A stretch of DNA of 44,027 nt from a virus: the IMG/VR virus record IMGVR_UViG_3300048571_000234, positions 1-44,027 of that record, one strand, 5' to 3'. This document shows positions 2,904 through 42,566 of the stretch, in pieces (positions within the stretch are counted from its first letter, which is position 1; every line of letters begins with the position of its first letter). The notes under the pieces were generated by a model. The model had not been told where the DNA came from, did not search any database, and was given only the letters and a program-made list of their open reading frames with translations. Position numbers and translations under genes: made by a program.

Positions 2904-5900
2904 ATGGCTACATTCACCATCACCACGCCTGTCAATATCGACTCTCTTGCCTCAAAGGTGGGTGGGGATATCTATAATATCAACGGTGGATACCTCACGA
3001 TCGATCAAGATTCTCGATTCGGACTCAATCAAAACACCTCTGCGAGTCTCGGGAATATGACACTCTCAGCAACTCTCGGAGGGACTTGTGAGGTGAACGC
3101 TACGAAAGTACGCCTTATCCCCTACAATACAGGTACAGGGACAGTTCCCGCAAACAATACCGCTATCTCGATGGGTGGTGCGAGCGGACTCCTCATAGGA
3201 GTCTACTCCGCTCTCAATGTCGCACCTACTGCCTCGGGTGGTGCAATGCCAGTGAGTGGATATATCAAGATCAAGCAGTGGAATAGTGTCGCATACTCCG
3301 CAGGTGTGCTCACAGGTATATCGGCAGTCGCTACAGGTGCAGATCAGGCAGGATGGATCGAGCTGGTCGGCGATGAGGCTGGTACTGTCACCGTGAATCG
3401 ACTGAATCTCTGGAAAATGCGAGGAGATTGGTATGATTTTCTCGGTGCTATGACCGATGGTACTCGAGCTACTACCTACCAGATCCCGAGTAATGGTGCT
3501 CTCCAGTACCACGCCTGAGTATGGGTCGAGACTGGCACAGCGACAGGAATATACGAGTTCTATCCGTGTGCTGGTACGCTCACGGCTCTCCTGGCAAATA
3601 TTGCTACGGACGCAGTCAGGGGGAAAGTATGCTGGGTATCAACCGCCTGACTCCTCAGATTCGGTCACGATGGTACGAACTCGACAGGGGGATATATCCC
3701 ACCAGCAGGTCGAAAGATCCGTATCGCCAACATATTCACACAAAACTGTACCACTGCGGCTCGTACTGCGAATGTGCTCCCAAATGCTACCCTCGCGACT
3801 CGGTATGACTTCACGACTACAGGGGGTGGAGCTATCGATATCGACAAGGCGATGCTCGGCTGGTATCCTTCCTTCGCTCAGCCATACTCCGTGGCTCTCA
3901 CGAATGTGGGTATCCTCACTCAGCTCTCAGTATCCGAGATTGCTTCCCCTATAGCGTGGTCGAATGTCGGAGTCGGACAAGAGGCTGCGAATACTCAGAT
4001 CCCTATACTTACAGCTCTTTGTTTTGCAGGTGGGACGATGGATAGGTGTACTTGGACTCGTGCGAATGAGTCTGCTTCTGGTGCATACTGCGTCTCGATG
4101 ACCGATTGTAGTGGCTTTACTGTCACGAATGAGTGGTCTTTTTCTTTTATAAAAAGTGCGAATGCTACGACTGGTACCCATTCGCTCACTCGTGTTGCTT
4201 CCAGTACTTGGACTACCACGAAAATGGGTGCAGGAAGGGTCTTTTTGACGACTTGTACCGATGTGAAATACACGAATACTACCTATTACGATCATCCAGC
4301 TCTCACGACCACGACAGCGATACCAATGTATATGTTCGATACGGGGACAGGATGTAAAAACTGTACTTTCGACGGGGTAGACTTTGGGTGACTCACTCTG
4401 GTACAGCCATATAGTGGTATTCTCCAGGTTGGATCAGCAGGATGTACGAATATCAAGCTCAGGAATCTTGGGACATACGCCTCACCGCTTGATATGGGTG
4501 CCACTCAGCAGGACGCCGTGGCGTGGTCTCGTGCTACTACGGTGGCTACTATCACAAAAACCGCTCACGGACTCAAGGTGAATGATATTATCAACTGTCT
4601 TATTTCCTCGGATACAGGTGCTATCGTAGTGGGTGCGAAGACAGTCGCTACGGTCGCCAATGCTAATACCTTCACATTCACAGCACTAAATGCTGGAGAT
4701 ACAACTGGAACTCTGAGCTACTACCCTACAATGAGTGCATTCCTCGTAGTCCTTGGCGGATGAGCGGCTGCGAATAATGTAAAATGTCAGCGGTGCTATA
4801 CTCCGCATCTGAGAACTGGTGCATACTCTATCGATAACTCGTCTAAAAACTTCCTAGTGGAATCGGTATATGGGGACTTCGTATCAAACTCGGGTATGAC
4901 AGGGCTCAATGCCTCCCATAAGGCGTTCGGTGCGACGCAGTTCTTATCTGCCAGTACCGCAGTCTATGGGTCACACTGGTTCGATATGTTCACGAATGAG
5001 GTCACTCCAAATATCATCGCTCAGGCGTGGGATCGGACAACGACAGTCGCTACGATCACAAGTATGAATCACGGACTCCGTACAGGTCTCCAGGTCGTCG
5101 TCAATACTTCGAGTGATGCTACCGCAATTGTCCTCGGGATCAAGACGGTCACCGTCCTCACAAAAGATACTTTCACATTCGCTTGTCTGAATGCAGGACT
5201 GACCGCTGGAACGCTCACCTTCATCCCTATCAATGGTCGAATCGGAATAATGATGAATGAGAGTACCGTGGATACCGTCTCTCAGTACACACTGGATGCT
5301 GGATCTCCGCAATTCACCTCGGCAGGATCGCTCTATATTCCGACAATCACTCAGCAAATCACCTTCGAGACTCCCTACTCTATCCTCGGTCACGATGTAT
5401 TCCCGATCACTCAACCAGTTATGGCAGGAGGGACAATCGGAAACTACGATATTACCTACGCTATAGAGACTGGATCAGGATACTCCGCGTTCAAAAATCT
5501 TTCCTATCCGAGAGCTGGTGGTGGAGGAGCCTCAGCCTCTACGAATGTCACGATGACGAATACGACAGGGGTATCAGCAGGGGACTATGTTTTTGGAACA
5601 AATATTGCTCCAAACGCAAAAGTAAGTAGTATAACGAACGGAACTACCGTGGTCGTAGATATCGCAAATATCGGAACTGTATCGGGTGTTCTCATCTTCA
5701 ACCAGATCCCGAATGAAACTATACCAGCGACTGGTGCAAAACTAAAAATCAGAGTGAAGACAACTACGACGAACGCAACGGCGATCACCTCGCTCTATAT
5801 CCCTACGAATAGCTCAAGTACCACGAGAGCCTATCAGTATCCTCTCGATACGAACACGCTCACCCTCACAGGGCTCATATCAGGGACTCAGGTGGACGCA

Positions 5901-6113
5901 TATACAGGGACGATAGGATGAAGCTCGGTGAATATCGGAAACACAAACAGCTCAGGGACTTCATTTGCATTCCAACACTCCTCGTGATGAATATCTGGGT
6001 ATATAACGCTGATAATCAATTGATATAATCCTCTCACGATTCCCATTACCTTTTCTGCCTCGGACATATCTATACCAATCCAGCAAATCGTTGATCCAGT
6101 ATTCACTCCATAA
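2904..6113 (+). CDS. Large beta-rich tail appendage protein with duplicated module (1069 aa)
   Basis: A single frame with about ten TGA glycines. The sequence is Thr-, Ser-, Gly- and Asn-rich and predicted beta-structured. Two modules, roughly 4520-4725 and 5030-5225, are clearly homologous: each has W-(S/D)-R-(A/T)-TTVATIT, HGL, GxKTVT/A, DTFTF/NTFTF and LNAGxTxGTL. They look like an internal duplication of a beta-sandwich carbohydrate-binding or spacer domain. A third glycine-rich segment follows (GGGGASAS, near residue 870). No enzymatic motif is visible. Probably a tail spike, fibre shaft or baseplate protein binding the host surface. Assigned from composition, size and neighbourhood, not a named family. 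Confidence 0.7.
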
Positions 6114-7959: not shown

Positions 7960-8382
7960 ATGATACATATTCCCATCCCATACGCCATCCTGATCAAGCG
8001 ATACGATGATCTCACTCTGAGTGATATCGAATATATCGGGTATTGACCCATCAATGGCTGCTGACCTGCGTGGTTCAAAAAATGGAATATACATCCCCCG
8101 AAGGATGTATTTTTCGATGCCGACTGCAATCACCATGATTGGGGATTTTTCCAGGGATACCATATCCGAGGATGGTATCGCCTCGATGATATCCTCTGTG
8201 CGATACTCCGCAAACTCGAATGCGATACCAAATTTTACTCCTATATGCTCCGAGATATCTTTCGTTTGACGGATATCGCAAAAATCATATACTCTCTCGT
8301 ACGGGCTACTCTTTATTTCATCCTCGTCGTGACTTGTGGATGGTTCTCATTCAACTGGCGATGAGTGTACACCTACTACTAA
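7960..8382 (+). CDS. Phospholipase A2-like protein with C-terminal membrane segment (140 aa)
   Basis: Residues 32-36 read NGCGP (the second glycine is TGA) and 53-60 read DADCNHHD, matching the PLA2 catalytic signature D-x-C-C-x-x-H-D in spacing, with H59 and D60 as the predicted catalytic pair. Prokaryotic and phage PLA2 domains usually keep one helix with this HD pair and fewer disulfides than secreted animal enzymes. The C-terminal 35 residues contain a hydrophobic segment (ATLYFILVVTCGWF) that could anchor it in the membrane. It lies directly before the holin and amidase, so lipid hydrolysis during lysis or entry is plausible. The rest of the fold is not confirmed by eye. Confidence 0.55.
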
Positions 8383-8386
8383 GTCT

Positions 8387-8845
8387 ATGCTAGAAGGAAT
8401 ATTCGCAGCAGTAACCAAATTGTGCTCATTTGCTGGACTCAAGATCGTTCTCACGACCGTTGTCGTCTATATCGAATATATGATCGGCGGATTCGACCTC
8501 GTCACTCGGTGACTCCTCATGCTCATGCTCCTCGACTTCGTGATGGGGTTCTCTAATGCCTGGATCAATCATGAGGTCTCTCGAAGAAAGATGAAGGATG
8601 GACTCTATAAATTCATCCTCTATGCGGTCACCATCATGACGGGGCACTGGACAGATATCATCGTATTTCACCAGACGGTAGAATTCGGCTTCCAAAATGG
8701 ACTCATCGTCTATCTCGGTCTCACGGAAGCGATCTCGATCCTCAAGCATGCGGCTGACCGAGGTGTCCCCATCCCCAAACGCATCCTCGTCCGACTCGAA
8801 AGCTACCGTAATCATATCGATATCCAGGATCCTATCAATCAATAA
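8387..8845 (+). CDS. Phage holin, Holin_4 type (152 aa)
   Basis: Starts 4 bp after the PLA2-like gene; one TGA glycine (VTRGLLM). It has two or three hydrophobic segments (residues 18-35, 43-58, 75-85), the LLDFVMGFSNAW motif, and the C-terminal YLGLTEAISILKHAADRGVPIPK, which matches the phage_holin_4/toxin-secretion holin family (EAISILEN..G.PIPK). Role: forms membrane lesions that time lysis and release or activate the endolysin. Neighbours are a PLA2-like protein and an amidase, a coherent lysis cassette. Confidence 0.85.
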
Positions 8846-14067: not shown

Positions 14068-15681
14068 ATGAACTCTGGTCGTCCCTATTCTGATAGCTTT
14101 ACATTTCTCGAAGGTATGGAACGATATGGTGCAACGATCGGCAGTAATCGTGCATTTCTCCTCAAAAATGTCGATTTTTTTCGTTCTCTGGCGACCGTTC
14201 GAGATGGTCTCATTGCTATCGGAGGATCGACCGCTGGAGCTCAGATTTTTGGAATGGGGATCATCAAAAAAGAAACGGGGGATATCCTCTGTCGGGTCGC
14301 TGGGAATAAATTCCAGAGGCTCGTATCCAATACCTGGACAGATGTCACGACTCTCTCGGGATCCTATCCTGCCTCGATGGAGTCTTTTTCATGACCTGAC
14401 AATACGGGATCAGCATTCACCTCAGGAACGGTCACCGCAGCCAATACGAGATCCATCGCAGCGACAGGGTATGGCAACTATAGCCAACTCGTCGGAAAAT
14501 ATATCGTCATCACGAGCTGAGGAGCCAGTGGGGATACGAAACTCGTCGCCTCGGCGACTGCCAGTGAGATATTTATCGAAGGCACCTTCAATGTCCTCCC
14601 CACCGCCACCGACACCTTCCAGATCCGAAACCGTGCTGACCATGTCTATGTGACGAATGGGATCGATCCCTTCATGATGTATGATGGGACAACGGTTACC
14701 ACCTTCTCCAACTCCAAGCGATTTCACTATCTCGCTGCGAATAATAATCGTCTCTATGGGGCGAGAAATGATGAGGATATCCTCGTGTATTCTGATCTCG
14801 GGACGGGATACTTCTCGAGTGAAAATACGATCCCGATCGATCAGGACGGAGATCAGATCACGGGTATGGTATCGAACCAGGATCGCCTCGTCGTCTATAA
14901 GCAATACTCCAGGTTTCTCCTCACAGGTTGAACACCTGAATTGTTCAACCTCAGAAGAATGGAATCCAATAAGGGTTCTATCGCCCCACTCTCGATCGTG
15001 AATGGAAATAATCTCCAATTCTTTCTCTCGGATGAGGGAATCGAGATGTTTAATTTTCTCGAACAATCCTCCCTCGATGAAGCCCTCCCCATCTCGCTCA
15101 TCATCGGAGATATGATATCGGCTCACTCGAGTGCCGAGAAGAAAGCCGCAGTATCTTGGGTCGATGATAATAAGCTCCATATCCAACTCTGAACTACCGT
15201 CTATGTCTATCATATCGCTCATAGTGACATCATGCGGTCGCAAGTGTTCTCCGTCTACCAATACTCATGAGCTGTCCAGTATGCCACTCGTCTCCAGGGA
15301 AAATCCTACATCGCTATCGCCTGAGTGGTGTACGCCCCTGGAGGTACTACGGATAATGGGGTTCCTATAGCCGTCGAGATGATCACGAATCGTCGTACCC
15401 AGAGTGGAAAAGAAGACTATCGACAGAATAAGCTCTACCTCAGGACTTATTTCGAATTCGAACGACCGAGTGTCAATACCGATGTGACCTTCTCGATGGC
15501 ACATAACGGGTCAGCCCTGGCAGTCAAAAAGGTCATCAATATCCGAGATAAGTACAATACCGCCAAGGTAGACTATTCCCATCGAGCGACCGACATCCAG
15601 ACGGGATTCTCATTCTCGACGAGTGAAAAAATCAGGTTCATCCATGGATCCGTCGAATACAATGTAGCCCCGCATCTCTAA
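14068..15681 (+). CDS. Tail nozzle / stabilisation-type protein, beta-propeller-like (537 aa)
   Basis: Five or six TGA glycines join otherwise separate frames. Motifs HVYVTNGIDPFMMYDGTTVTTF, AANNNRLYGARNDEDILVYSDLG, SNQDRLVVYKQYSRFLLTGG and GSIAPLSIVNGNNLQFFLSDEGIEMFN match the repeating beta-propeller blades of phage packaged-DNA stabilisation or nozzle proteins (P22 gp10-like in role). In that role it would plug or extend the portal and form part of a short tail. This supports a podovirus-like particle. Family by motif style; no search made. Confidence 0.6.
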
Positions 15682-28385: not shown

Positions 28386-28413
28386 AGTATAATCATATTC
28401 ATATTCTATGCAA
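28386..28413 (-). promoter_or_regulatory. Promoter with decamer operator, heads recombinase operon
   Basis: Minus strand: TTGCAT, 16-bp spacer AGAATATGAATATGAT, TATACT. The decamer fills the spacer. Predicted start about 28379. Confidence 0.75.
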
Positions 28414-31292: not shown

Positions 31293-31487
31293 TTATATCG
31301 CTGGTGCATTAGATCATGTATACTGTCGGTGTGTGATCCGCTCGCCTGCTGTTGTGTAGCTTTGTGGCTGTTGTTGCGTTTCGACGAGAACATAATACAA
31401 GATATCCCAAGAAAAAGCAAATAAAAAGTATGTGAAATTATAGAAAGCTATTGCATAATATAGAAAACATATACAATCTATCCGCAA
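31293..31487 (-). CDS. Possible membrane protein with TTG start (64 aa)
   Basis: Open frame with a hydrophobic segment (FLYYAIAFYNFTYFLFAFSWDILYYVLV) and an end SNAPAI that echoes the NAPAI end of the 30411 gene, suggesting paralogy. There is no ATG; the best start is TTG 31487. One TGA glycine. Low confidence because the stretch is A+T-rich and a competing frame is open. Confidence 0.3.
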
Positions 31488-32082
31488 CCCAAAGCGGAAA
31501 ACTCAGAAAACAAAAAAAGACAATAAAAAGACAATAAAAACAAACGAAAACAAAAGAAACCGCAATACAAAAGGACAAAATCAAAATTGACAGAGCACCG
31601 CACGCCGAGAAATTGGCTGAATAGAGCCAAAAGAGCCGAACACAAAAAGTGATCAATTCAATTCTGTGCTGTTCAGTGTACCACTCACAAGGGTACAGCG
31701 TGTGCGAGGGTGAGGCGGGCGGGTGGTAGTGTACACTCTATACAATGACTGTATATAATTATATGATTATATATCACACTATGAATGTATCCGCAATGGA
31801 AAGCGATAGAGCAGAGACACTATATGTATGATGAAAGGACACAAGGCACACGAGCAGAGGGAACGAAGGCAAGGCGAGCCAATGTTAGAGTGAAACAAAC
31901 AAAACGACCCTCTCCCACGGGTACTTGTGCAAAAACCCTTGGCGATCGGTGCGGTCGCTCACACCCCCCACCCTGGGTGGAGAAATGTGCGATGTCGGAG
32001 CTGAAGGAAGCCAATGTGAATCTTTTCTGTTTTTTTAATTTACCATGTTTTCCTGTATTTTACTACCATTTTGCATGATGGG
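31488..32082. other. Gene-poor divergent control region
   Basis: Nothing here reads as a convincing gene. It holds a palindrome AGTGTACACT at 31728-31737 and a near copy AGTGTACCACT at 31675-31685, an A+T-rich tract (31741-31775), and the 13-bp palindrome CCACCCTGGGTGG at 31968-31980. It lies between minus-strand early genes and plus-strand replication genes, close to dnaB, so it is the best place for an origin or master operators. A plus ORF at 31781-31888 has no support. Confidence 0.5.
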
Positions 32083-34943: not shown

Positions 34944-36659
34944 ATGGAAAAAATACAATTCAATGTCGAAAAGGCTCTGGTCTGAAAACTCAAGGATCGT
35001 GAATGGCGTATAAATAACTTGTACAAGATTGTCAATGAAGATGGCGAGCTCATTACCTTCAAGATGAACCGTATCCAGAGACAGATCTACCGAGAAATAA
35101 AAGAAGCCGCTCAAAAGGGTCGGCATATCAATATCCTCAAGTACCGTCAGGGAGGAGTATCGACCTTTTTTATTGTCCTCTTTTTCGATGATACCCTCTG
35201 GGGAGGAACGAATCGAGATAACTATATCATGTGTCACCGTCTGGATCTCTTGGATCAGTTTTTCAATAAGGTGAAGGTGATGTATGATAATCTCGATCCT
35301 GAGATCAAGGCGATGATCCCACAACCCAAGCACTACTCGGGCAATCGGATCCAGTTCGAAGGAACGAATAATCAGCTTATCATCACGATGGATGTCCGTG
35401 GTAAAACACCGACAAACCTCCATATCTCGGAGTTTGCATTTATGCCTGAAGAGCACCAGGCAGCGACATTCCTGGCGATCAATCCGATCCGTAATGCGAA
35501 TGTCTCGATCGAGTCTACGGCGAATGGTGAAGGAAATACTCACCATAAGCTCTGTGAACAGGGGATGAAGAAACAGGGGGCATACCGATTCCTCTTTTAT
35601 CCTTGGTTCATCGATGATCGAAATGAGGTACTACCTCCTGAAGGAATGATGTACACCGTGAAGGAAAAAGATATCATCCGTACCTATCTCAGTGATATGT
35701 TCACTCCTGAAGAGATCATACGAAAGATGGCATGGAGACGGATGCAGATCGAAACGAATAAGGCACTCGGTCTCCTCGGAGAAAAGAAGTTCATGCAGGA
35801 AAACCCTGCGAGTCCGATGGAAGCATTTCTCACGACAGGTGGTCGAGTATTTCCTGAAGAGGATATCGACTTCGAGATCGTCTCTCCACTCGAGACGGCT
35901 GGCGACTGGAGAGGATGGAGACTCTATAGTCTCCCTGAAGATAAGTGTAGTATCGGAGTCGATGTCGGTCATGGTATCGGGCAGGACTACACGGTCATCT
36001 ATGTGATGAATGCTCTCAATCGGTGTATCGCACTATTTCGGTCGAATGTCCTCCAGGAAGATCAGATCGCCGAGAAGCTCGATGAGATCCTGACCTTCGA
36101 CTTTGGTCAGGGACGATCCTACTGGGGTCGCATCCTGATCGAGAACAATCAGGGGCAAGCCCTCATCAATGCGTGTAAAAAGTATGACTGGTTCGATGAG
36201 CTCGTCATCCCCCTCATGGATACGAGAACCGATGAGGTGAAGAAGAAAAAACCAAACTCGAAGATCGCCTATGGATTCACGACAACGGGAGCGTCGGGTG
36301 GCTGATGATCAAAAGAACTGATCATCAAAGAATTCCGATGAGCCCTCTATCGAAAAATGGTGGGGATCCCTCTCGAGTGTTATAATGAGATCGTGACCTA
36401 TCGGTATGCACCGTCGGGGAAGGCGGAAGCCACTCCTGGTAACCACGATGACTGTATCATCGCTGCGATGCTCGCCCTCTATGCGAAGAATCATGACACC
36501 CATGTAGTATACTGGGCAAAATGAGTTGGTATAGGAGAAATTTTCTTCCTTCCCAATAGTCCTGAAGCGATGCGACGAGATATCGAGAGAACTTGGACTG
36601 AAAAAAATGTTGATAATTTTGAAATTCCTATACAATTTGAAGAAGAAAGTATCTGCTAA
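34944..36659 (+). CDS. terL: Terminase large subunit (571 aa)
   Basis: ATPase: KYRQGGVST (residues 66-74, Walker A-like, as KxRQxGxST), LHISEFAFM as Walker B, then STANGEGN coupling motif. C-terminal RNase H-like nuclease: CSIGVDVGHGIGQDYTVIYVM (about residue 330), LIENNQG, and a late DDCIIAAMLA segment. Five TGA glycines, three near the C-terminus. Packages DNA into the procapsid by ATP hydrolysis and cuts the concatemer. Start at 34944 is fixed by the promoter. Confidence 0.93.
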
Positions 36660-36669
36660 ACCCCACCCT

Positions 36670-36891
36670 ATGGAAAATATCGTCTATATCCTTGTCGCAG
36701 TTATTTCTATCCAGTCTATCGGATGACTCTACATCATCTATAGGCTGGCTTTGCTTGTAAAAGCCAAAGACCTCTATGAGGCACGAAGCTATACCGAAAA
36801 GACCCCTGAACCAACGATGAATGATGATGACTATGCTGATGTCTGACCTATAACTTCTAACCTTTTTGCAGATGTCACTTCTTCAAGATAA
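36670..36891 (+). CDS. Single-span membrane protein (73 aa)
   Basis: N-terminal segment IVYILVAVISIQSIGGLYIIY is a transmembrane helix with a TGA glycine; a second TGA sits in ADV-G-PIT. Ends 20 bp inside the portal gene in another frame. Function unknown; encoded between terminase and portal. Confidence 0.55.
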
Positions 36892-38923
36892 TTATAAGGG
36901 ATTTCTCGGGGATTTTCAACGAAAGATCGCTCAGTCATCGAGCCATAGAATCAACTGGGAGCAACTCGCATACATGTGTGATGTCTATTTTAAGCGTTCT
37001 CTCGATCAGAGTCCAGGAACCAATAAGGTCGCTGGATCCAATACCATGAAAATGACTCCCAGGGATCAAGCCATCCATATCCCCAAGATCAAAAAGATTG
37101 CCAGGGGGATCAAGAATATGCTCCTGAAGAACCAGCCTCGCTGGAATATCCAGGCAGGAGGACTCGTCAAAGCTCCCTCGGCGGATGAGGTCGAAGTCGC
37201 CCAGAAGATCCTCGACTACTACTATAAAAAAGCCTATGTCCGTACAGGACTCCGAGATATCGTCACGGATGGATTCGTCAAGTCTCTCGGGTGGTGTAGT
37301 GTCCTCTGGGATAGTGATAGAGACGAATGTAGGATCTCATTCGAATCTCCTGACAATATCTATACCTCTCCTGACTGTCGGTTCGAGTGACCGACGATCA
37401 CGGGAAGCTATGTGATCCGTCGCTATGTCCGAGGGATTCAGGAAGTCAAAACTAATCCTCTCTACGCAAATGGAAAATTTGCAGAGGATGTATCGAAGAT
37501 CGTTGCCTCCTATGGAAAAGAAAAGAGCCTCTTCAATCGTCTCACGGGAAATCTCGTTGTCTATACGAATACCGATGGGATGGGTCTCGTAGAGGAGATC
37601 TACTTCATGGATGATAGAGCAGTTCCGATGTCTCAGGAGTCTGTCCTCGATGCTCTCAAAACCATCGCTGAAGGGGAAGGAGGGATCGATGCTCTCGAAG
37701 GAAGGGAGGAGAAAAAGGAATCAAAACTCCGTGTCATCGCTATGGTCGGAGATATCGTGATCCGTGATGAATTTCTTGACTATGACTACTTTCCCTGGTT
37801 CGGATATAAGCCCGAACACGATCATGGACAGATCTATACACGACCCTGGATTGCTGATCTCATCCCCCTGGCTGATGCCATCAATCGTGCCTGGACAAAT
37901 CGGGATGTCTGGATCAATAATGTTGCCCGAGGGCGTATCATGCTGAAAAAAAATACCAAGCTCTCTACCCTCAAAAACACCTTCGGAATCGATATTGTCC
38001 AGTATGAAGGAGAGATGCCTACCGAGATGCGAATCGAGGCGATGCCTCCACAGGTCGGCAGTCATATCGCTGAAGCGAGTGCTATCATGGATGATGTCGG
38101 TGGTATCCATGGAGCATCGAGTGGACAAAATATCGGGACGAACTACTCGGGTACGGCTATAGCGGCTCTCCAGGCAGCGGATCTCGATAATGTCTCTGAG
38201 CCAAAGGAAAATCTCGAAACCTTCTTCGAAGAGCTCGCCTACCGCATCCTCGACTGTGAATCGAAGTTCGGGAAGATCAAACGATTCCAAAGAAAAGAAG
38301 GAGGAGAGATCGTCGCTATGGGCATCGCTGGTATGAAAGCGGCAGAATCTGCTGGACTCTCCACGGAATGAGCGATCATGATCAAGCCATTTGATAATAT
38401 CGAGGTCGATATCGTGCCTGGATCGGCATTCACGGATATCCTCGCTGTAGAAAACCTCACGAAGATGAAAGAACTCGGTCTAAAGATCCCTGATAGTGCG
38501 ATCATGGAGGCGATGAAGATCGGGAATGCTCGTGAGCTCATCAATCGAGCGATGCAAGAGGAAGAGATGGCTCAGGAATATAAGGATGGTCATGATGCTC
38601 TCGAGGTGAAGCAAGCCGAACTCGAGACGATGAAACTCCTCGAGGGGATCCCCGTCGCTGCACAACAGGGTGAAAATCACGAGATCCATAATGCGATCCA
38701 TGGAAAAGCCCTCCAGTCACTCGATAAATCGGATCCTCGGGCGGAAGCTCTGCGAAAACATATGCTCCAACATGAGGCGATGGTCAATCCACAAGCACAA
38801 CTCCCTGGAGAAACGGAAATCCCCGTCTGACCCGTGTGAACTGGTGCCGCTCCCCCAGGATGATCACAAGAAGTGATCGCACCACCTCCTCCAGGAGCCG
38901 AACAAATCCCAGTAGCAGCTTAA
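36872..38923 (+). CDS. Portal protein (683 aa)
   Basis: Follows terL and is of portal size. Features: KIKKIARGIKNMLLKNQPRWNIQAGG, GFVKSLGWCSVLWD, ESPDNIYTSPDCRFEG, PYFPWFGYKPEHDHGQ-like segment near 260, PLADAINRAWTNRDVWI, ASSGQNIGTNYSGTAI and a long C-terminal helix, all typical of large podovirus-style portals. Six or more TGA glycines, and a Pro/Gly-rich end. Forms the dodecameric DNA channel. Slight start ambiguity: 36872 is used, overlapping the upstream gene by 20 bp. Confidence 0.8.
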
Positions 38924-38945
38924 CATACAGGTTTCTCTAAAATAT

Positions 38946-38973
38946 TTGACATCGTCAATGTGATGAATATAAT
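38946..38973 (+). promoter_or_regulatory. Consensus promoter for small ncRNA
   Basis: TTGACA, 16 bp, TATAAT: both boxes match the consensus, the best promoter in the window. The spacer ends GTGATGAA, a degenerate form of the decamer, so control may be weaker or absent. Predicted start about 38980. Confidence 0.85.
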
Positions 38974-38978
38974 TCTCC

Positions 38979-39100
38979 CACATCTGCTGATGCAGGGTGT
39001 CGTATATTTTAGGCAATAAAGATATACGCAACCCTGCATCTATCCCTTCGAGGGGCAATGCAGACTAACCTATCATTATTGCCAGTGATAGGTTTTTTTT
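38979..39100 (+). ncRNA. Compact structured ncRNA, three-way junction (about 120 nt)
   Basis: A self-contained transcription unit with no ORF. P1: TCTGC 38983-38987 with GCAGA 39060-39064. P2: GATGCAGGGT 38989-38998 with ACCCTGCATC 39031-39040, extended by CGTATAT 39001-39007 with ATATACG 39022-39028 around a 14-nt loop. P3: CCCT 39044-39047 with AGGG 39051-39054. Ends in a perfect terminator. No known RNA class recognised; not tRNA- or 6S-shaped by eye. Strong promoter implies high levels. Confidence 0.75.
39067..39100 (+). terminator. Rho-independent terminator of the ncRNA
   Basis: AACCTATCA (39067-39075) pairs perfectly with TGATAGGTT (39086-39094), loop of 10 nt, followed by a run of T to 39100. 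Confidence 0.9.
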
Positions 39101-39221
39101 ATTATTTATCTTTTCCCACTATGGATGACCGCTATATCACAACTGGAGGAGAGGGATCAGTGACTTTCACTGCTTCAACATCTACTATTCCTGAGAAAAA
39201 AAGCCTCCTTATGGGACATCC

Positions 39222-39368
39222 ATGACTGCCTATAAGGCGATGCAACGAGCGAATGGGAGAGAAAAATCTTCCCTCTTCACCAAGAAGTGGACTCCTGGAA
39301 GACAAAATGAGCTGAATGTCTACCGATTCATGATCCAGCGAATCAATAACAAACTCAAGTATGCCTAA
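39222..39368 (+). CDS. Small basic protein (48 aa), possibly frameshifted from 39121
   Basis: MTAYKAMQRANGREKSSLFTKKWTPGRQNELNVYRFMIQRINNKLKYA, codon use like neighbouring genes, no TGA. Upstream, ATG 39121 opens a frame (MDDRYITTGGEGSVTF...IPEKK) that would join this one by a -1 shift in the A7 run at 39196-39202, giving a protein of about 81 residues. Basic helical content suggests nucleic-acid binding. No family recognised. Confidence 0.5.
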   Translation: MTAYKAMQRANGREKSSLFTKKWTPGRQNELNVYRFMIQRINNKLKYA

Positions 39369-39492
39369 TACTACCGTCTGTCCCCAGTGTACCTACGACA
39401 TGTTCCCGAATATGTATACCGCAGACAGTCCTCCAAAAGAGCGATACTGTCCCAATTGTGGATACACCGAACCACTAGCTATCGCAAGATAG
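39361..39492 (+). CDS. Zinc-ribbon micro-protein (43 aa)
   Basis: MPNTTVCPQCTYDMFPNMYTADSPPKERYCPNCGYTEPLAIAR has two CPxC knuckles, a zinc ribbon. Starts inside the end of the previous gene (8-bp overlap). No TGA. Its stop lies at the edge of the large structured region. Unknown role, one of three zinc micro-proteins in the genome. Confidence 0.65.
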   Translation: MPNTTVCPQCTYDMFPNMYTADSPPKERYCPNCGYTEPLAIAR

Positions 39493-40330
39493 CTCCTATC
39501 ACCTGGCAACAGGTGTCCATCACATCCTAGAACGAGCTGGTATCCAATCTAGGCGTAGAATATGGCGTATACCATCTATGGGAGGCTCTACGCTCAATCT
39601 ATAGTCTCCAGGATAAGAAATGTGCGGTATGATCTACATACCGATATATGGTCGAAATAACGACCTCCATACTCATCGACAGACAAGTCGGAGCGGCGTG
39701 ATATCCAATGCTCCGTGTAGAAAAACGATCCAATGCACTACCTCGCTGTCTGGTAAGTCCAATGTGCAGCACCCTTTGGTCGGGGTTGCGTGGGGGAAAG
39801 AAAGATCATGACTTTCCCAGGTACTAGTCAGACGCCATAAGCTCTGACTGTCGATCTCATAATACAGCCTCCTCGTGGCGAGATTGGATATCCAACCAAT
39901 GTATGATTTATTTGTGTCGAAAGGCATAGGATATTTTATGGTGCGAAAGCACCTCCATAAACAAAGTCTGAGGCGAAAGCTAGGCAGATCCACAAGGTTG
40001 TGAACTTCTTGTGGGTATTTCGAGATGTATCTCGACTGCGATAGAAATGACTCTAAAAAATCTATCGGGGTAAGTTCGCCGACAATGCAGTACAGTCCAT
40101 CATACTGAGTAGCAAGTCGTGTATGGTATCTGAGATCACCATGGGAGCATAACCCTAAATAGTCAGCCAGTAGCTCTTCCAATAGAAGGGTGAAGCTATA
40201 ACTCTATACTCTATATGTATAAGGGGGTAGGGGGTTTGACTCTGTGCAGAAACAGAACCATAACCTGAGTTACAAATCGGGTACAGGAAAACTCCAGTAT
40301 CAGCAGTAACCCAATCTCTCAACTTTCTTC
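39493..40330 (+). ncRNA. Large ornate structured RNA candidate (about 0.8 kb)
   Basis: No believable gene in 838 bp, yet about 18 local perfect or near-perfect stems follow one another. Examples: CACCTG-GCAA-CAGGTG (39500-39515); GCGTAGA 39553-39559 with TCTACGC 39587-39593; CGGAGC with GCTCCG (39689-39715); GGGAAAG with CTTTCCC (39794-39818); AGTCAGA with TCTGACT (39826-39849); GGTGC-GAAA-GCACC (39940-39953); CCACAAG 39990 with CTTGTGG 40014; TCGAGA-TGTA-TCTCGA (40020-40035); CGATAGA with TCTATCG (40039-40067). Four loops are GNRA only when read on the plus strand, which sets the transcribed strand. Size, ornateness and phage location recall GOLLD and ROOL RNAs; no class assigned. Confidence 0.65.
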
Positions 40331-40357
40331 TTGATTTCTACAGAATATGAATATGAT
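40330..40357 (+). promoter_or_regulatory. Promoter with decamer operator upstream of scaffold
   Basis: CTTGAT, 16 bp ending GAATATGAA, TATGAT; with TTGATT as -35 the spacer is 15. Weaker than the others. Predicted start about 40364, 48 nt before the scaffold ATG. Confidence 0.55.
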
Positions 40358-40411
40358 ACATCTATAGGACAAAACCTCTCAAATGTCATTTTATCTTTTT
40401 ATCCAATCTTC

Positions 40412-41308
40412 ATGGGAAAAGACCAAGTCGCACCTCCTGCATCGACAACAGGAAAATCAGCCTCAGAAGTGCTTGCTACGCATTTTGCTTCTCTCGCTGC
40501 ACCAGCACCAGCTGGTAATGGCGTACCCCCTACTCCGCCAGTAGGAGATGGAAGTCAAACTCCTCCACCAGCAGCAGGAACTTCTCCAGCAGGAACTCCC
40601 CCAGCTGATGCACCCAAGGAATGAGATGGAAGTCAAACTCCTTCGCCTCTTGCAGAACTCCTCAAAATCCCGAAAGCTCTCCCAAAAGAGCAGTTTGTCC
40701 CCCTCGAACGACTCCAAGATGTCATATCTAAAAAGAAGACGAGTGAGGCATCTCTCCAAAAAGAGGTAGATTTCTGGAAAAATAAGGCGGAAGAGCGAAA
40801 AAAGGTGGTCGATGATCTTCCTGACGATCAAAAGCAGGAACTTCAGCGGGCTCGAGCTCTCGGCATGAAGAATGTCGATACAGAGATCGAGGAAAACCTC
40901 TCTCGCTTGGATAGTACCGTAAAAACAGAATCTGAAGAGCTCACCCAAGCTCAGACCGAACTCAAGGAAGGAACCAATAAGTGGTTCGAGGAGCGATCTT
41001 CCCAACTCACGAAAGCATTCGATGGGTCTAATGGTCTTCCAAAATTCGATCTGAAGGAACTCGGAGAGTATGCGAATACGATGAACTTCTTCCCTGAAGA
41101 CCCTATCATCCTCTACCAGCAAAAATACTATGATGATATCATAAAATTTGCCGCTGGGCAGAATAAAGTATCGACAAAAATCGAAACTGGAACGCCTGGG
41201 AAGGCATCTGATATGGTTCCTCCGTCGTATGACTATCGAGATAAGGCTGCAAGAACCCTAAAGTCGCAGGCGGCGTTGGAGAAGTTAAAGTCGCAATATT
41301 CGTCCTAA
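40412..41308 (+). CDS. Scaffolding protein (298 aa)
   Basis: N-terminal 90 residues are Pro/Ala/Gly-rich and disordered (APAPAGNGVPPTPPVGDGSQTPPPAAGTSPAGTPPADAP has a duplicated GDGSQTP), followed by long coiled-coil helices (LQKEVDFWKNKAEERKKVV, DTEIEENLSRLDSTVKTESEELTQAQTELKEG) and a basic C-terminus. Placed between portal and major capsid protein, as scaffolds are. One TGA glycine. It directs procapsid assembly and is then removed. Start chosen as the first ATG in the frame. Confidence 0.75.
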
Positions 41309-41327: not shown

Positions 41328-42566
41328 ATGTTGAATAATGTCAATGCAGTGCTCCAAGCATTTGCGGTGCTCCTCAAAGAGGTACATGCACCAAATATGA
41401 CATCTGCCATCTTCGATCAAAATGTATTCTCATCTATGATCAAGAAGAATAATGCAGGTGTCACCTTCAAGAATGAAAAGATCTTCATTCCTACGAATAC
41501 CGCTGGTCACTCTGGTGTCGCCTTCACGGGTGGATACATCGCAGACGGTGCTATGCAGTTCGACCAGACGGAGGCGACGGCGAAGTATGGGTATGGAAGT
41601 CATATCCTCGATGATAAACAAATCGAGAATATCAAGACCCAAGGAGAGGCAGCTCTCATCAATATCGCTGACAAATTCGCCGAAGGGTTGAATATGTCAT
41701 TTGCTCGTACGACCAATCGTATGATGCTCGGTAATGGTGATGGTGTGGTGGCGAACTTCACAGCGAGTGCATCGGCTACGGCTACGCATACCGTGAGTGA
41801 AACCCTCTCTCTCATTCCTGGAAAGCGATATGTTGTCGGGACGCTCGCTGCTATCAAGGCAGGTACAGGTACCGTAGTAACACTCCAGACCATCAATGGT
41901 ACTCCAAACTCGGTAACATTCACGGCTCCTGTGACTATCGTCAATGGAGACAAGATCGTAACAGAGGGAGCCTATATCGGAACGGCGTGTCAAGAGTATG
42001 ACGGTATCGGAAACCTCGTGGATAACGAATCGAATGCCTCTGGATCGAGCTTCCAAGGAAAGACTCGTGCTACCAACTATTGGGCAAACTCAATCGTAGG
42101 GGGTAACGGAGCTCTCACTGAAGCTATGGTCATCGCATTTGTCAAGAATCTCACGAAGTATGGGAAACCAGATCTCCTCGTGACGCACCCTGATCTCCAA
42201 CTCGCCTATGCTGCTATCCTCCAGTCTGTTCGCAAGAATAATTCTGATGTGAAGTATATGGATCTCGAGACAGGATTTAAGGGGATCGAAATCATCTACG
42301 GAAACACTTCTGTGCCTCTCGTTTCTGATTGGGATAATGATAAGAGCACTATCTTTGGTCTCACCACTGATACCTTCTCTCATGCAGAACTCTGCCCTCT
42401 CGAGGCTCTCGAAGCGGCAAACGGTGGAACCTGGACGGATGTCTTTGAAACGGTCGGTGGTGTGACTCGCCGAAAGGCAGCCTACCAGACGACGATGAAA
42501 ATGTATGGAAACCTCGTGTGTACGAACGCTATGTCGAACGGAAAACTCAAAGGACTCACTTACTAG
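41328..42566 (+). CDS. Major capsid protein, HK97-fold type (412 aa)
   Basis: Directly after the scaffold, typical size, with N-terminal AVLLKEVHAPNMTSAIFDQNVFSSMIKK, a central insert rich in Thr/Ser/Val, and a C-terminal domain with PDLLVTHPDLQLAYAAIL and YQTTMKMYGNLVCTNAMSNGKLKGL, the pattern of N4/P22-like capsid proteins. It has no TGA codon although it has dozens of glycines, unlike most genes nearby. Followed by a strong terminator, consistent with high expression. Confidence 0.85.
   Translation: MLNNVNAVLQAFAVLLKEVHAPNMTSAIFDQNVFSSMIKKNNAGVTFKNEKIFIPTNTAGHSGVAFTGGYIADGAMQFDQTEATAKYGYGSHILDDKQIENIKTQGEAALINIADKFAEGLNMSFARTTNRMMLGNGDGVVANFTASASATATHTVSETLSLIPGKRYVVGTLAAIKAGTGTVVTLQTINGTPNSVTFTAPVTIVNGDKIVTEGAYIGTACQEYDGIGNLVDNESNASGSSFQGKTRATNYWANSIVGGNGALTEAMVIAFVKNLTKYGKPDLLVTHPDLQLAYAAILQSVRKNNSDVKYMDLETGFKGIEIIYGNTSVPLVSDWDNDKSTIFGLTTDTFSHAELCPLEALEAANGGTWTDVFETVGGVTRRKAAYQTTMKMYGNLVCTNAMSNGKLKGLTY

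Follow-up and report, generated by a model that had tools for sequence, protein, structure and literature searches.

Comparison of two related phage genomes shows that the DNA at positions 39496–40290, between the portal and capsid genes, specifies a large plus-strand RNA that is under selection to keep an elaborate fold and a set of conserved loops, and that it is not a protein gene. The window, meaning the whole stretch of DNA that was analysed, comprises positions 1 to 44,027 of the virus record IMGVR_UViG_3300048571_000234 (44,027 bases). An earlier note, made from this sequence alone, had proposed a large non-coding RNA at 39493–40330, and the comparison confirms that such an RNA is there. 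The proposed region stands for about 39496–40290 and not for its 3′ end, as 40295–40325 is poorly conserved and 40325–40400 is the conserved promoter/leader of the next gene, outside the RNA body.

PHROGs profiles recognise the terminase large subunit (34944–36659, a match to phrog_2, the ordinary large terminases), the portal (36866–38923) and the major capsid protein (41328–42566) in the window. The gene at 40412–41308, which has no PHROGs profile match, occupies the scaffold position between the large RNA and the capsid gene. It is the direct downstream neighbour of the RNA within the portal–capsid interval; the upstream neighbour is a short ORF:

39361–39492, plus strand: zinc-ribbon ORF of 43 amino acids (CPxC...CPNC), conserved at 8253 of locus L003 in the relative and ending just 5′ of the large RNA.

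The single close relative that we located, IMGVR_UViG_3300037606_000709 (loci L002–L006 and L105), carries the entire head module with unchanged gene order, and its proteins are 73–88% identical to those of the window. At third codon positions identity is only ~52%, so neutral sites have diverged far and the pair is therefore informative. Among the TGA codons of L003 that stand opposite a differing window codon, 39 of 44 face GGN, which confirms that these phages read TGA as glycine; this is code 25, which certain candidate-phyla bacteria use. TGA is used far more in the coding genes of L003 than in those of the window.

The relative's counterpart of the large RNA sits in locus L003, and the region aligns from end to end with L003 8384–9290. 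It is ~75% identical between the two phages, compared with the ~52% at third codon positions. Consensus folding with RNAalifold, measured against column shuffles that preserve gaps and local conservation, gave a z score of −10.1 for the whole element on the plus strand and −5.5 on the minus strand, and −9.7 for the core (39666–40295); the 12 coding controls (six segments, both strands) ranged from −0.2 to −3.4. The closely spaced stems of the earlier note are borne out by the consensus fold of this core, which has 24 helices and 146 pairs, every one of them a standard pair in both phages.

Nineteen of the 146 core pairs have changed on both sides. When the 3′ letters were re-dealt, the mean was 9.7 such pairs and none of 500 trials reached 19; slid partners gave 0–1. 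Because the consensus structure and the count of compensatory changes both come from one alignment, we also tested pairs predicted at p>0.8 from one sequence alone. Substituted pairs of this kind were still paired in 13 of 19 cases from window to relative and in 15 of 20 from relative to window, compared with a fifth to a third in plus-strand coding controls. When the shared DNA was scanned in windows of 140 columns, position 39923 ranked first of 216 and a small RNA at 38940 second. The same scan has an outlier at window 31300–31640, an A-rich, conserved and apparently non-coding stretch upstream of replication genes, with a UCCGC/GCGGA hairpin and without an Rfam match.

Nothing in the region points to a protein. 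Substitutions in the core are spread over the three codon positions as 39, 41 and 39, without codon periodicity; its indels (1, 2, 1, 2, 1, 9, 1 and 5 nt) are mostly of 1–2 nt; and no listed frame of the region has a Pfam match, all in keeping with the earlier statement that it contains no convincing gene. A minus-strand ORF at 39634–40182 was considered and found unsupported, again without codon periodicity. Two marks of a large structured phage RNA in general, conserved helices with compensatory changes and an absent coding signal, were both found.

The stems could in principle have arisen by chance in ordinary non-coding or hidden coding DNA, and single-sequence folding would agree with that: the folding energy lies only about two standard deviations below shuffles (z −2.1 for 39493–40330, 20 shuffles; −2.2 for the core in the window and −2.8 in the relative), no better than a capsid-gene control at −2.4. 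The earlier expectation of an energy far below shuffles was thus disappointed, whereas compensatory changes, which had been expected alongside it, were found in the relative at about twice the shuffled mean. The four GNRA loops that had been reported are present in the window (GCAA at 39506–39509, GAAA at 39945–39948 and two more GAAA), and only GAAA 39945–39948 is GNRA in the relative; GCAA has become AUCA, one hairpin is deleted and one loop is a hexaloop. We therefore rejected these mostly unconserved loops as evidence. Folding energy alone is weak and neither it nor the GNRA loops would prove the large RNA; the comparison is decisive. Covariation, the consensus-fold z score, the absent codon periodicity and the scan rank refute an origin by chance, to which we give next to no credence. 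A conserved protein and a lack of covariation, named in advance as signs against an RNA, were both looked for, and we found no coding signal and strong covariation.

The RNA and its parts are as follows:

39496–40290, plus strand: large structured RNA, approximate extent of conserved structure (alifold z −10.1; aligned to L003 8384–9245).
39500–39552, plus strand: 5′ domain of two hairpins, from the alignment with L003.
About 39590–39646, plus strand: variable linker, with the hairpin GGTATG-ATCTA-CATACC in the window and a tRNA gene instead in the relative.
39647–40290, plus strand: conserved core of about 24 helices and 146 pairs, 19 of them compensatory.
39647–39671, plus strand: module UAUGG-hairpin-CCUCCAUA, copy 1, from a pattern count.
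39825–39850, plus strand: covarying hairpin, TAGTCAGA/TCTGACTG in the window and TAGTAAGT/ACTTACTA in L003.
39853–39885, plus strand: covarying helix, GATCTC/GAGATT in the window and GTGTCC/GGACAT in L003, with 4 compensatory pairs.
39937–39959, plus strand: module UAUGG-hairpin-CCUCCAUA, copy 2, GGTGC-GAAA-GCACC in the window and GGTGG-GAAA-CCACC in L003.
39989–40015, plus strand: hairpin with the invariant loop GUGAACUU at 40000–40007, from the alignment with L003.
40039–40067, plus strand: covarying hairpin, CGATAGA/TCTATCG in the window and CGATACA/TGTATCG in L003, with the invariant loop ATGACTCTAAA.
40124–40141, plus strand: covarying helix, TGGT/ACCA in the window and CAGG/CCTG in L003, with 3 compensatory pairs.

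In the 5′ domain, the first hairpin (CACCTG-GCAA-CAGGTG) becomes CACCCG/CGGGTG in L003, a compensatory change from T-A to C-G, and the second is CUGG-UAUCCAAU-CYAG with its loop UAUCCAAU invariant. Dense conservation starts at ~39647, with the first copy of the UAUGG-hairpin-CCUCCAUA module. Each RNA contains precisely two copies of this module, and the two sequences have no others; the inner stems of all four copies differ, and all of them pair. Several invariant loops and internal loops are flanked by covarying stems, for example AUGACUCUAAA at 40047–40057 and AGUA/AGUA within 40080–40120, which suggests tertiary contacts. The loop GUGAACUU at 40000–40007 is complementary to 40072–40079, a pseudoknot that is only a candidate because both sides are invariant. 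Invariant complementarity over a longer range also links 39738–39744 with 40224–40230; such matches are candidates only, as dozens of 7–8-bp matches without covariation occur in both sequences. As only two sequences could be compared, the majority of pairs show no variation, and neither the long-range pairs nor the pseudoknots are established. Inverted repeats confined to the window, such as GATATCCAAT/ATTGGATATC and ATCGACAGACA/TGACTGTCGAT, were rejected, as in L003 one side has changed and the other has not.

In the relative, a tRNA-Ile(AAT) gene (L003 8527–8601; found by ARAGORN, Rfam tRNA 56.3 bits) sits at the junction of the 5′ domain and the core, in place of the linker hairpin of the window. 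The RNA of the window contains no tRNA, so one of the two members has an embedded one. The position before the anticodon is a nearly universal U in tRNAs. Here it is a C, for which reason this tRNA may not be a normal decoder; CCA is not encoded. Going by its sequence, it may serve as a cargo or form a tRNA-like domain and not be a working decoder.

A second, smaller RNA lies upstream, between the portal gene and the zinc-ribbon ORF:

38946–38973, plus strand: promoter P1, TTGACA-16-TATAAT, a perfect sigma-70 promoter (12/12); TTGACT-16-TATAGT in L003.
About 38980–39098, plus strand: companion small RNA of about 118 nt, a three-way junction with a long hairpin, a short hairpin and a terminator hairpin, from its folds and pairs.
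39012–39017, plus strand: loop GGCAAU of the small RNA, matching AUUGCC at 39078–39083; GGCAAG/CUUGCC in L003, a concerted change.
39067–39098, plus strand: intrinsic terminator of the small RNA, with the loop AUUGCC, from the sequence.

P1 stands directly 3′ of the portal gene, and the promoter and small RNA together (38946–39098) correspond to L003 8090–8240. Compared with shuffles, the small RNA folds at z −7.3 in the window and −5.7 in L003, and its alifold z score is −9.2. Six of its pairs are compensatory, one of them within the 6-bp match between the loop of the long hairpin and that of the terminator. We think that this GGCAAU/AUUGCC contact is easier between two molecules than within one, because helices of about 22 bp and 11 bp leave the junction side by side. 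Beyond the terminator, 39106–39357 is an insertion in the window relative to L003 and contains a small ORF (39222–39368, MTAYKAMQRANGREKSS...) that is missing from the relative.

The small RNA is independent of the large one, and could be packaging-RNA-like or an attenuator. The phi29 packaging RNA (pRNA) is about 120 nt long and has a three-way junction, complementary loops and its own promoter, and the small RNA resembles it in each of these respects. The two differ in that the third hairpin of the small RNA is an intrinsic terminator, the loop of which is one of the two matching loops. One or both of the RNAs might therefore join the portal and terminase, or the scaffold, in the manner of the phi29 pRNA, with GGCAAU/AUUGCC linking small RNAs to each other. 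Both lie between the portal and scaffold genes, and the small RNA, some 118 nt long, has a perfect promoter and a terminator of its own, a three-way junction and a pair of loops that change together. The terminase, however, is of the ordinary phrog_2 kind and not a phi29-type ATPase; the small RNA matches nothing in Rfam, including the phi29 pRNA family; and the loop match could be intramolecular. A more distant code-25 phage (L007, a 36–40% relative) has the same gene order yet lacks the RNAs at this place. On balance we consider a role in head assembly or DNA packaging rather improbable.

Searches for further members covered several collections. Viral contigs were searched with the capsid, portal and terminase (as single proteins, fragments and alignments) and with two RNA patterns, and yielded one contig with the large RNA. 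Terminase searches of genome contigs reached only distant prophages from other phyla and no code-25 host genome. BLASTN against phages and plasmids returned nothing save one 25-nt chance match, and no additional RNA was found by nhmmer over the fetched loci (1.6 Mb) or, across 33 sources (0.57 Mb), by the covariance models R1 and R2.

In L007 the gap between the portal and scaffold genes is only about 170 nt and has no large RNA. The head module thus does not always include the RNA, which is dispensable to the module as such and, judging by these genomes, may be a lineage-specific addition. The L007 interval (5755–5930) holds only hairpins, one with a stem of about 13 bp. An RNA missing from the same site of a related phage could also be a degenerate self-splicing intron or another mobile RNA element lodged between genes, and a fragment of group II D1–D4 was matched in L003 below threshold (13.2 bits, E 2.9). 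Against this, group I, group II and HEARO are unmatched at gathering score, the position is intergenic with the adjoining genes intact, no protein is encoded by the element, and its place is conserved in both phages with invariant loops. We regard an intron or mobile element as very unlikely.

How the large RNA is transcribed bears on how it might act. One further element lies downstream of it:

40342–40357, plus strand: promoter-like element P2, AGAATATGAATATGAT, from its motif; 3′ of the large RNA and 5′ of the scaffold-position and capsid genes.

The P2 motif AGAATATGAATATRAT recurs at a few other sites in both phages with 15–16 of 16 matches, whereas shuffles gave 0–2 matches at the looser threshold of 13/16. 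The recurrent motif WGAATATGAATATRAT is found in the window at 40342 and 10225 (plus) and at 28407 and 26553 (minus), and in locus L005 of the relative at 15197 and 9970 (plus) and at 8721 and 2120 (minus). It is likely to be a phage promoter element common to both phages, and we read P2 as a putative phage promoter for the scaffold and capsid genes. We recognised neither a promoter nor a terminator immediately around the large RNA, P2 being downstream and the closest terminator upstream; a discrete transcript is therefore assumed. As P2 lies 3′ of it, the RNA would need transcription from upstream. In the relative, the zinc-ribbon start follows the terminator of the small RNA by just a few bases, which makes readthrough from P1 or the terminase–portal operon the likely sources; in the former case the small RNA could be an attenuator.

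With no promoter or terminator of its own immediately around it, and in the relative too little space to fit a promoter between the terminator of the small RNA and the ORF that follows, the large RNA could instead be a cis-acting element of the late mRNA, which would set the expression, processing or stability of the adjoining head genes without being made as a separate RNA. Its place within a colinear head-gene module, directly 3′ of the zinc-ribbon ORF, is consistent with this. The conserved P2 between the RNA and the scaffold-position gene means, however, that capsid-gene transcripts need not include it; its size and helix count are far above those of usual cis elements, and the next gene's start site lies outside the structure. 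We judge a cis-acting role unlikely.

The large RNA matches none of the families against which it was compared. At gathering score, Rfam gave zero matches for the whole window. At E≤10, GOLLD, ROOL, OLE, introns and HEARO were all unmatched in the window region, and the relative gave only the tRNA and weak chance-level matches, among them the group II fragment; others (HDV-like, U3, rli34 and YrlA) were far below gathering score and were judged to be chance. The GOLLD model (RF02032, the conserved 3′ region) was unmatched at E≤10 in window and relative, as was the ROOL model (RF03087), the sensitivity of which is unproven here as the control genomes held no ROOL. Since the large RNA fails both sequence models, we file it as neither, in agreement with the earlier view of it as GOLLD/ROOL-like and unassignable to them. 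The suggestion of a new class fits the lack of any Rfam match and is limited by there being two known members. Neither the large nor the small RNA is yet established as a family, because only two genomes carry either.

From its sequence, the large RNA looks like a new family of GOLLD/ROOL-like giant phage RNA. GOLLD and ROOL have recently been shown to form RNA-only cages, of 14 subunits in GOLLD and eight in ROOL, and few RNAs are as poorly understood as the giant phage RNAs. We favour, with evenly balanced confidence, the reading that the large RNA is a folded, trans-acting late RNA of this kind and a family of its own, because its size, phage origin and multi-helix appearance match and the relative's tRNA sits where the 5′ domain meets the core, as in the GOLLD linker. 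It would be made in the late phase, by rightward transcription through the head module, either from P1 (38946) past the terminator of the small RNA or from the terminase–portal operon. It would then act in trans as an abundant, compact, stand-alone RNA in the manner of GOLLD and ROOL; it may self-assemble, oligomerisation being a pure analogy with these two, and its variable linker could carry a phage tRNA as cargo.

A bolder and decidedly improbable proposal is a two-RNA head-assembly system between the portal and scaffold genes, with both RNAs produced during virion assembly and taking part in it: the small three-way-junction RNA would bind its own copies through the covarying loops, and the large RNA, as a giant RNA from a new family, might form an RNA particle loaded with tRNA. 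An unrelated giant RNA family in code-25 phages with the recurring linker tRNA would suggest that giant RNAs arose more than once in phages, the head-module position would be a fresh clue, pointing to head assembly, to the role of giant RNAs, and the small RNA with its covarying loop–loop contact would be a second new phage RNA beside the portal gene.

Three known RNAs invite comparison with the large RNA. OLE is likewise a large ornate RNA, and forms a homodimer (PMC12286853); it differs in being cellular, mainly from extremophilic bacteria and not from phages, and its Rfam model is unmatched here. ROOL is a large ornate RNA that is phage-encoded, as this one is, and tRNAs are often close by (PMC12286853); its model is unmatched at E≤10. 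GOLLD differs in setting, as the RNA described here lies in a head-gene module and not beside a tRNA island, belongs to phages of code-25 hosts and does not match the GOLLD model. In other respects the likeness to GOLLD is close: both are phage-encoded, about 800 nt long and rich in helices, with a 5′ part that is less conserved than the 3′ part. GOLLD is often found with tRNAs nearby or in its linker, and both members here come from phage contigs; the internal linker of GOLLD can contain a phage tRNA (PMC12286853), just as the relative's RNA holds a tRNA in its own.
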